Shown one piece after another: positions 32,420-37,199 of a stretch of DNA of 64,000 nucleotides. How positions within the stretch are numbered: the stretch's first letter is position 1; each line of letters starts with the position of its first letter. The stretch covers positions 1-64,000 of the forward strand of contig JAJEHX010000050.1 of the NCBI GenBank assembly GCA_022823465.1, given 5' to 3'. Made by a program: the position numbers and the translations under genes. The notes under the pieces are model-generated. The model made no database searches, was not told the origin of the DNA, and saw only the letters and a program-made list of their open reading frames with translations. The stretch is from Candidatus Latescibacterota bacterium (GTDB lineage Bacteria; JAAXHH01).

Positions 32420-32448
32420 TATATACTGGCGGACGTGGAAGGTGTCAA
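32420..32448 (-). promoter_or_regulatory. Strong promoter for the LytR_C-rsfS-mtnA-ribosomal superoperon
   Basis: A perfect TTGACA, a 17-base spacer and TATATA on the minus strand. The -35 overlaps the stop codon of the glmU-like gene. The predicted start near 32413 leaves about 260 bases before the first gene. Confidence 0.75.
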
Positions 32449-33227
32449 CTGTTTTTTGCCTGGTCGGAGGCGCGATCGCGGTTGTGTTCCAGCAGCCACG
32501 ATTCGGCCGCCGACAGATGTTCCGGCGTGTTAATCCCGATGGTCTCTTCCGGCGTCCCGGCCGGCGCGTCCGCAACGCGGTGGCCCTGCCGGCGCAGGAT
32601 CTCGATGGTATCCGTCAGATAGAATTCGCCCTGCCTGTTCTCCGGCGTAAGCCGGTCCAGGGCCTGTAACAGCCGGGTTGGCTCGAAACAGTACGTACTG
32701 GTGTTGATCTCCCTGAGCGCGCGCTGCTCCGCGGTGGCGTCCTTTTCCTCGACGATCCGGTCGATGCGTCCCGCTTCGTCTCGAAGGATGCGCCCCAGGC
32801 CCGTGGGATCGTCGAAGTGGGCGGTAAGCACCGAGGCTACGGCGCCTTCCCGGCGGTGTGCGCGCATCAACGAGGCCAGGGTGGCGGGACGGATCAGGGG
32901 CGTGTCGCCGGCGAGAACGAGGATGACGCCCTTTTCATCGGCCAGCAGGGGCGCCGCCTGGCGAACCGCGTGCCCGGTACCCAGTTGTTCTTCCTGTACG
33001 GCGAATTCCACGGACATTCCGGCCAGCTCGCGCCGTACCTCGTCGGCCTGGTGTCCGACGATGACGATGATCCGCCGTGACCGGAGCGCCCGCGCGGTGT
33101 CGAGCACATAATGAATCATGGGCCTGCCGTTCAGCCTGTGCAGCACCTTCGCCAGGTCGGAGTGCATCCGGGTGCCTTTCCCGGCGGCCAGGATCACTGT
33201 GATCAGATCGCTGTTTGCTTCTTCCAT
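32445..33227 (-). CDS. GlmU-like sugar nucleotidyltransferase, uridyltransferase domain only
   Basis: 260 residues with the pyrophosphorylase signature VILAAGKGTRMHSDLAKVLH, LVLAGDTPLIRP, EQLGTGHAVRQAAPLL and GEFYLTDTIEILR. These match the N-terminal domain of GlmU, which makes UDP-GlcNAc from UTP and GlcNAc-1-phosphate. The C-terminal left-handed beta-helix with acetyltransferase activity is missing, because the gene stops after the linker helix. The acetylation step must come from another protein, or this enzyme uses a different sugar phosphate. Confidence 0.9.
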   Translation of the reverse strand: MEEANSDLITVILAAGKGTRMHSDLAKVLHRLNGRPMIHYVLDTARALRSRRIIVIVGHQADEVRRELAGMSVEFAVQEEQLGTGHAVRQAAPLLADEKGVILVLAGDTPLIRPATLASLMRAHRREGAVASVLTAHFDDPTGLGRILRDEAGRIDRIVEEKDATAEQRALREINTSTYCFEPTRLLQALDRLTPENRQGEFYLTDTIEILRRQGHRVADAPAGTPEETIGINTPEHLSAAESWLLEHNRDRASDQAKNS

Positions 33228-33257: not shown

Positions 33258-33752
33258 TTACGGTTCCGCGAGGCGGCGGACGAAATGGTCCACGGGTTTC
33301 AGGTCTTCCAGCAGATCCGATACGGTCCGCCCGCGCACCGGGTGGATCAGCTCCGGATGGATCTCCGATAGCGGAACGAGTACGAAGGCCCGCTCCGTCA
33401 TGGCGGGATGGGGCAGTTCGAGGCCGGGAAGATCGAGGACCAGGTCGTCGTATAGCAACAGGTCGAGATCGATTTCACGGGGCCCGTTTCTCCACGACGT
33501 GGAGCGGCCGAGGCGCCGCTCGATTTCCTTGAACGCATCCAGCAACCGCGCGGGCGTCAGGGTGGTTTCCAGCAGGGCCGCGCCGTTGACGAAGTCGGAT
33601 TGGCTGGCATAGCCTACCGGCCGCGTTTCATACCATGACGAGCGCCGCAGAACCCGGATCCCGGGATGTTCGCCCAACTCGTGCACCGCCCGCCGGCACC
33701 ATGCGATCCGATCCCCGATATTGCTGCCCAGTCCCAGGGCGACAGATGCCAT
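33258..33752 (-). CDS. folK: HPPK (2-amino-4-hydroxy-6-hydroxymethyldihydropteridine pyrophosphokinase)
   Basis: Transfers pyrophosphate from ATP to the pterin in folate synthesis. 164 residues. GLGSNIGDR, RSSWYETRPVGYASQSDFVN and the metal-binding GPREIDLDLLLYDDLVLD are all present. It lies nine bases after folB, the preceding pathway step. Confidence 0.95.
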   Translation of the reverse strand: MASVALGLGSNIGDRIAWCRRAVHELGEHPGIRVLRRSSWYETRPVGYASQSDFVNGAALLETTLTPARLLDAFKEIERRLGRSTSWRNGPREIDLDLLLYDDLVLDLPGLELPHPAMTERAFVLVPLSEIHPELIHPVRGRTVSDLLEDLKPVDHFVRRLAEP

Positions 33753-33760
33753 TTCGCACC

Positions 33761-34147
33761 TTACCGGCCGGTACTTTCCGTCTCTCTGCTTCTATTCAGC
33801 TCGACCTCGACGGCCCCTGTACGCAGGACCCGGGCCACGGCGGGCTTTCGCAGTCTCACCGCGACACGGCCCACCTGGGGGTAGGCGGACAGCAGTTCGT
33901 CCGCCACGCGTCCGGCGACCGCTTCCAGCAACCGGTGCGGCCTGCCGCCGAGGATCCGTTCCACGCGCAGGCAGACGTCTGCGTAGTCCACGGATTCGGC
34001 CAGGCTGTCCGTGCGGGAAGCTACCGAAAGATCAAGGCGCAGTCCGACATCGGCTTCGAAGACTTGCCCTTGTGTCCGTTCCCGGGCAGTCGCGCCATGA
34101 TGGCCAAAAGCGCGAATGCTCCGTACGCTGATCCAGTCTTCGGACAT
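33761..34147 (-). CDS. folB: Dihydroneopterin aldolase
   Basis: 128 residues of the tunnelling-fold family. It cleaves dihydroneopterin to glycolaldehyde and the hydroxymethyl pterin used by FolK. It starts MSEDWISVRSIRAFGHHGATARER, where the family reads GxHGxxxxE. DYADVCLRVERILGG and LLEAVAGRVADELL match the second half. It overlaps no neighbour and precedes folK. Confidence 0.93.
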   Translation of the reverse strand: MSEDWISVRSIRAFGHHGATARERTQGQVFEADVGLRLDLSVASRTDSLAESVDYADVCLRVERILGGRPHRLLEAVAGRVADELLSAYPQVGRVAVRLRKPAVARVLRTGAVEVELNRSRETESTGR

Positions 34148-34160
34148 GAGGTCGATTCGT

Positions 34161-35408
34161 TCAGGCCAGGCTGACCGCCGGGAAGGCCCGCTTGCGCAAC
34201 CGGAAACGGGACATCAGCCGGTCCATGCGTTCCAGTACGGTCTGTATCTGGGATTCGTTGACGTTGAAGGCCATTCGGACGTATCCCTCGCCGAATTCGC
34301 CCAGGTACACACCGGGCACGACGAACACGCCCGCCTTGCGCAGCAGGATGCTGAACCGAACGGAAGAATAGCGGGGCGGTACAGGAAGCCACAGGTAGGG
34401 ACCGCCTCTGGGTGCACGCAGGTTCCAGCCGAGGTCCCGCAGTCCCGATACCATCAGGTCCCGCCTTAACTGGTATTTCGAAGCCGCCTCTTCGACGTGC
34501 CTGTTCAATTCCGGAAACTCCGCGGCCGCGGCCGCCTGCAGGCCGGGAAGCAGCGGGGCGTGCAAATGGGCGGTCAACTGGGACATGGCGGCCAGGGCGG
34601 AGGGATTGCCGACCGCCACGCTCAGGTCGCGGAACACACCGCCGGGCAGCGTGGAAAGGGAGAACAGCTCGATACCGACGTTCATCGCGCCGGGCGTCTG
34701 TAGCAGGCTGGGCGCTTCGATCCCGTCGTAAGTCAGAAAGTGCTGGGTGGCGTCGTGACAGACGATGATGTTGTGACGTCGTGCGAAATCGACCAGTTCC
34801 CGGAAGAACGAATGGTCCGCCACGGCCCCCGTGGGATCGTTCGGATACCCGATATACATCAGCTTCGCCTGGCTGGCGACGCGGGGCTCGATCTGCTTCA
34901 GGTTGGGCAGGAAATCGTTCCGTCCGTGCAGGGGATAGGATTGGATCTGTCCGTTCGCCAGTACGGCGCTGGTTCTGTAAGCCGGATGGGCCGGGTCGGG
35001 GACCAGCACGGTTTCACCGGGGTTTACCAGCGCCATGGCCACGCTGGCCGGTCCCGCGGCGGCGCCCGCGAAGGGCAGGACGTGGACGTCCGGATCGATC
35101 TCCACGTCGAACCGGTACGCGAACCAGTTGCTGAACATCCTTCGGAACTCCGCGCCGGCGAGCCAGCCCGCCTGGGTCGGATCCTCTGGTCCGCCTGGCC
35201 CGCCTGTTCCGTCAGCGACCGTCATGGCGTTGAATGTCCGCTCTATCGCTTCGCGTCGGATGGGGGTATCGGTGGAGCCCGTGGTCAGATCTATGGGCTC
35301 GATCCCCCTGGCGGCCAGTCTTATGAGATATCGGGAATGTTCCAGGGGACGGTTCAGCGGGACCTGGTGAAGCCGTTCCGCGCGTTCTATAACCACAGGG
35401 TTTCTCAT
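34161..35408 (-). CDS. Class I/II aminotransferase homologue lacking the PLP lysine
   Basis: 415 residues of the aspartate aminotransferase fold. Conserved elements are YPNDPTGA (Asn190), the cofactor-ring aspartate in VCHDATQHF (Asp219) and the C-terminal substrate arginine in GYVRMAFNVNES. The position that should hold the Schiff-base lysine (usual motif SLSKxxxMxGxRxGxxVG) reads SLSTLPGGVFRDLSVAVG, so Thr253 (ACG) replaces Lys (AAG). The GxRxG anchor is also changed. Transamination is therefore unlikely; it may bind a ligand or regulate. It has its own promoter after the groEL terminator and a good GGAGAG site, followed by folB and folK. Confidence 0.85.
   Translation of the reverse strand: MRNPVVIERAERLHQVPLNRPLEHSRYLIRLAARGIEPIDLTTGSTDTPIRREAIERTFNAMTVADGTGGPGGPEDPTQAGWLAGAEFRRMFSNWFAYRFDVEIDPDVHVLPFAGAAAGPASVAMALVNPGETVLVPDPAHPAYRTSAVLANGQIQSYPLHGRNDFLPNLKQIEPRVASQAKLMYIGYPNDPTGAVADHSFFRELVDFARRHNIIVCHDATQHFLTYDGIEAPSLLQTPGAMNVGIELFSLSTLPGGVFRDLSVAVGNPSALAAMSQLTAHLHAPLLPGLQAAAAAEFPELNRHVEEAASKYQLRRDLMVSGLRDLGWNLRAPRGGPYLWLPVPPRYSSVRFSILLRKAGVFVVPGVYLGEFGEGYVRMAFNVNESQIQTVLERMDRLMSRFRLRKRAFPAVSLA

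Positions 35409-35564: not shown

Positions 35565-37199
<1,635 letters not shown>

Follow-up and report, generated by a model that had tools for sequence, protein, structure and literature searches.

In the window (the whole stretch of 64,000 nucleotides that was analysed), a gene on the minus strand encodes a homologue of class I/II aminotransferases, which the Pfam model Aminotran_1_2 matches at 117.5 bits. Its frame starts with ATG and runs through 415 codons, and an open reading frame check found zero internal stops. The folate genes folB and folK lie on one side and groEL on the other (Table 1). A scan for promoters and terminators in this DNA found sites no more numerous than in shuffled sequence, and a Pfam search showed the protein to be free of fused output domains, DNA-binding ones included. 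Beside folK, another minus-strand gene (32445-33227), conserved across the order, encodes a GlmU-type uridylyltransferase domain alone, with 260 amino acids and without the acetyltransferase half.

Table 1. Genes, codons and protein segments discussed in the text, with their positions in the window
Feature	Position	Strand	Basis or remark
Putative dapL-derived pseudo-aminotransferase, 415 aa	34161..35408	-	ORF, profile matches, orthologues and predicted model
folB (dihydroneopterin aldolase)	33761..34147	-	13 bp downstream of the pseudo-aminotransferase gene, co-directional
folK (HPPK)	33258..33752	-	Ancestral dapL neighbour
groEL	35565..37187	-	Upstream neighbour at every orthologous locus with a long enough contig
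Codon ACG (Thr253), PLP-lysine column	34650..34652	-	Alignment
Asp261 codon, PLP-phosphate Arg column (Arg266 of AspAT)	34626..34628	-	Alignment
Asp191 codon, PLP-ring Asn column (Asn194 of AspAT)	34836..34838	-	Alignment
Gln222 codon, O3' Tyr column (Tyr225 of AspAT)	34743..34745	-	Alignment
Gly/Pro-rich stretch (GGPGGP), residues 66-87	about 35148-35213	-	Variable length among genus members
Basic C-terminal tail SRFRLRKRAFPAVSLA	34164..34211	-	Clade-specific, absent from Lys-bearing homologues

The gene is present in all 16 sampled genomes of the phylum, at full length in 15 and, in one, only as a C-terminal piece at the edge of a contig. This sample spans five genera and consists entirely of MAGs, with the relatives deposited mostly as Candidatus Latescibacterota and some as Gemmatimonadetes or Zixibacteria; sponge-associated Latescibacterota have been described previously (PMC12993501). 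In a quick tree, which did not place the exact sister group, the 15 full-length orthologues are monophyletic within the family of LL-diaminopimelate aminotransferase (DapL), with an SH-aLRT value of 100 and a stem of 1.33 changes per column. Both of the best NCBIfam models for the window protein represent this enzyme, and its scores fall below the cut-off of each (309.7 bits for PRK09276, cut-off 507; 304.3 bits for TIGR03540, cut-off 593). Members of the clade score 304-396 bits against TIGR03540, and seven tested homologues from outside score 579-651 bits, six of them over the cut-off.

Gene order also points to dapL. Outside the phylum, folK is found near the gene at 58 of 70 loci, mostly directly downstream, and dapB at 35 of 70, both counts being lower bounds because some flanks are short. 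All 16 loci of the phylum have folB-folK downstream and lack dapB, so that the order dapB-dapL-folK elsewhere compares with [dapL*]-folB-folK here. Based on the tree placement, the DapL scores of the outside homologues and the retained position of folK, we regard the gene as dapL by descent and its product as the positional descendant of DapL. Since linkage to folK is common to Lys-bearing dapL genes, the folate neighbourhood is inherited and historical, and gives no evidence for a folate role; we rejected a folate function suggested by folB-folK on this ground.

The segment FSLSTLPGGVFRDLSVAVG of the window protein lies in ungapped register with the lysine stretch of the family, placing Thr253 exactly at the Schiff-base lysine. 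The alignment and the intact frame thus confirm the earlier note, which had reported threonine instead of the PLP lysine in an uninterrupted protein of 415 residues. In close homologues outside the phylum (from Omnitrophota, Desulfobacterota-type, Nitrospirota and other groups), this column is lysine in 43 of 43 cases. None of the 15 full-length orthologues has it; their residues are valine (nine), methionine (two) and threonine, serine, isoleucine and phenylalanine (one each), the serine belonging to the orthologue of G013 and the phenylalanine to that of G014. This difference is more than chance and shows that the loss of lysine is fixed in the clade. On whether threonine is itself fixed, the answer is different, as it is unique to the window genome among the 15 orthologues; with a column that is unconstrained (T/V/M/S/I/F), the idea of a specific new catalytic threonine is unsupported. 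We also looked for a replacement lysine elsewhere and found none convincing. Only Lys182 and Lys358 are invariant among the 15 orthologues, both outside the active-site loop and in columns where lysine is also common among Lys-bearing homologues. The conserved protein, with no convincing substitute lysine, is presumably a non-transaminating homologue or pseudoenzyme, as had been proposed from its sequence.

Other columns of the cofactor site have changed as well. They are named here after the residues of E. coli AspAT (Arg266, Tyr225, Asn194 and Tyr70). The phosphate-binding arginine, present in 43 of 43 outside homologues, is aspartate in 14 and glutamate in one of the 15 clade members, a more extensive alteration of the GxRxG anchor than had been claimed. 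The Tyr225 column holds glutamine or histidine in all 15. Residue 191, at the column of the PLP-contacting asparagine before Pro-Thr-Gly (Asn194), is aspartate in all 12 members of the genus and asparagine in the three deeper relatives; Asn190, previously listed as retained, is its neighbour and not the asparagine in contact with PLP. The remainder of that list holds, as Asp219, which pairs with the pyridine nitrogen, and Arg378, the C-terminal substrate arginine, are invariant (15/15). In the genus, the stacking aromatic column is His141 and a variable Gly/Pro-rich stretch occupies the position of the Tyr70-bearing arm, while the phosphate-cup Ser-Lys is altered in most orthologues. More of the old PLP site is kept in the three deeper relatives than in the genus, which looks like stepwise decay of the site.

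These changes bear on whether the protein could still hold PLP non-covalently, as a sensor, regulator or store of the cofactor. The invariant Asp219 and Arg378 and the predicted intact fold would suit such a role, but we consider it improbable given the acidic residue at the phosphate-arginine column and the lost Tyr225 column in all 15 orthologues, the changed Asn194 and stacking-Tyr columns in the genus, the partial loss of the phosphate-cup Ser-Lys and the lack of a fused output domain. The PLP-binding pseudoenzyme suggested earlier is disfavoured for the same column changes, while a ligand sensor is still a live option. From the sequences, we infer that proteins of the clade would not bind PLP. 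As a counterpoint, Arabidopsis DapL variants K270N and K270Q have been crystallised with ligands, according to PDB titles; aminotransferase lysine variants can thus still hold PLP adducts, making the loss of PLP less certain.

The gene has a median dN/dS of 0.20 (Nei-Gojobori, 66 pairs within the genus), which is lower than those of its folate neighbours folB (0.33) and folK (0.24); the values for nadC and birA are 0.27 each, and for pfkB and groEL 0.14 and 0.05. This shows purifying selection for some function, without saying which. With parts of the cofactor site lost from a carefully preserved protein, it probably now has another, non-catalytic job. A read error, an assembly artefact or a decaying pseudogene might be suspected in a sample where every genome is a MAG, yet it has almost negligible probability: 15 assemblies agree on the absence of lysine with different codons, the frames are intact, synteny is kept and dN/dS is low. 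The AlphaFold2 model is confident (pLDDT 85.1, pTM 0.84) and has fold type I, predicted to be intact, with the loop of the former lysine poorly determined (mean pLDDT of 61 for residues 251-260). Because Lys-bearing relatives were included in the alignment used for modelling, it shows compatibility with the fold and not the state of the pocket. The nearest solved fold found by Foldseek is BacF (TM 0.83); of the solved structures, BacF (PDB 6l1n) and PDB 2x5d come closest in both sequence and fold (TM 0.76-0.84), and both align a lysine where the window protein has threonine.

Precedents for lysine-less fold-type-I proteins exist. In ColD, a GDP-4-keto-6-deoxymannose 3-dehydratase, the PLP lysine is naturally replaced by a fixed histidine and the cofactor chemistry continues. 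New enzyme chemistry of this kind, with Thr253 or another pocket residue substituting for lysine, could account for the purifying selection and for Asp/Glu261, a conserved acidic pocket residue new to the clade. We nevertheless judge it highly improbable, as the threonine occurs in the window genome only, six different residues share the column among the 15 orthologues, and the clade has neither a fixed histidine nor, in contrast to ColD, a constrained column and a phosphate anchor.

The clade has acquired conserved features of its own, with 39 positions that are invariant within it yet rare in the family. They include Arg346, Arg351, Arg357 and Tyr368, all in the small domain, as well as Arg401, Arg403 and Arg405 in the new basic C-terminal tail. 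LCB1 of eukaryotic serine palmitoyltransferase is a fold-type-I subunit without the PLP lysine and an obligate partner, although it belongs to the alpha-oxoamine synthase family and its partner is known, whereas none is known for the window protein. By analogy with LCB1, the protein might be a non-catalytic subunit in a heterodimer with a Lys-bearing aminotransferase, shaping or regulating the active site of the latter. The genome has about 19 further strong matches to class I/II aminotransferases, and at least one DapL-like paralogue, conserved within the genus, still has its lysine. In the clade, the regions that make up interfaces in fold-type-I proteins, namely the N-terminal arm and the small domain, are highly conserved. 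These observations would be consistent with such an arrangement. It seems unlikely, however, since no close paralogue is found (the best aligns over part of the length at 27% identity), none is adjacent, and in the genus the arm expected to supply Tyr70 to the adjoining active site has become a Gly/Pro-rich stretch that is variable.

The pathway context of the gene has also changed. In comparison with DapL (TIGR03540/PRK09276), its best-matching family, the window protein shares fold, length, the gene position beside folK, Asp219 and Arg378, but the clade has lost the catalytic lysine, the phosphate arginine and Tyr225, scores only 304-396 bits against the cut-off of 593, and lacks the DapL pathway context, as the genus has no dapB. 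A profile search of the phylum genomes found no gene over the cut-off of either DapL model, and a Lys-bearing DapL paralogue elsewhere in the phylum was rejected on this basis. Searches with two dapB models found the gene missing from 12 of 12 genus genomes and from G013, with only weak matches of about 20 bits. The three genomes that have dapB (G012, G014 and G015) are exactly those with a tetrahydrodipicolinate N-acetyltransferase (DapD_Ac) over cut-off, and dapA-dapB-dapD are grouped together in G014. All but one of the 16 phylum genomes have LysW over cut-off, and in the window genome it is clustered with LysX-, ArgC/LysY-, LysW-aminoadipate-kinase- and ArgD/LysJ-like genes, a cluster that probably serves the synthesis of lysine and not of arginine. 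Across the phylum, the DapL step is bypassed, either by acetyl-type DapD (three lineages) or through loss of dapB together with a lysine-type LysW cluster. The LysW cluster contains two adjoining LysX-like ATP-grasp genes (L246, G000:C42, 5415-7102), one over and one under the LysX cut-off.

Taken together, we consider it quite likely on sequence grounds that the clade is a monophyletic, PLP-free pseudoenzyme derived from DapL and retained for a role other than transamination. The product of a vertically inherited dapL would have lost its PLP site ahead of the diversification of the sampled phylum; since then, the protein would have been kept in a folded, PLP-free and non-transaminating form. 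DapL may have become redundant, with decay of the cofactor site following, and selection may then have acted solely on another property of the dimer. Most likely, the dimer would use the retained Arg378 and its pocket, which is now acidic, to bind an amino acid or a small carboxylate, or it would dock to a partner by way of the conserved Arg-rich surface that is new at the C-terminus. The ligand or docking mechanism on its own is possible but falls somewhat short of probable. More tentative still, and rather doubtful, is the broader reading of a ligand receptor or assembly factor: a PLP fold that would have turned cofactor-free once, phylum-wide, and come to matter after replacement of the lysine pathway, involving the new acidic pocket (Asp219, Asp/Glu261 and, within the genus, also Asp191) and the Arg-rich surface.

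In the open papers searched, we found no description of a lysine-less DapL or a DapL pseudoenzyme. Another homologue of a PLP enzyme without the PLP lysine, Rv3778c of Mycobacterium tuberculosis, is an expressed relative of cysteine desulfurases that was judged non-catalytic, with its retained function unknown (PMC12910592); it belongs to the cysteine desulfurase subfamily and is unrelated to DapL. The protein studied here is probably a clean example from nature of an enzyme that has outlasted its own reaction, with the step bypassed, the cofactor site gone and the protein kept throughout the phylum. Annotation based on similarity could mislabel the gene as LL-DAP aminotransferase, which could give false support for the DAP pathway in these uncultured bacteria.

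Of the 16 phylum genomes, 15 have a MurE match over cut-off, so peptidoglycan is probably made. In the MurE at L224 (G000:C46:69892-71286), the DNPR motif is kept and the usual GHE reads RGDT, as in the genus. The genus genomes with RGDT-type MurE are those without dapB, and their wall diamino acid may have changed. Diaminopimelate epimerase domain matches were found in G001, G002, G003 and G006, all genomes without dapB.
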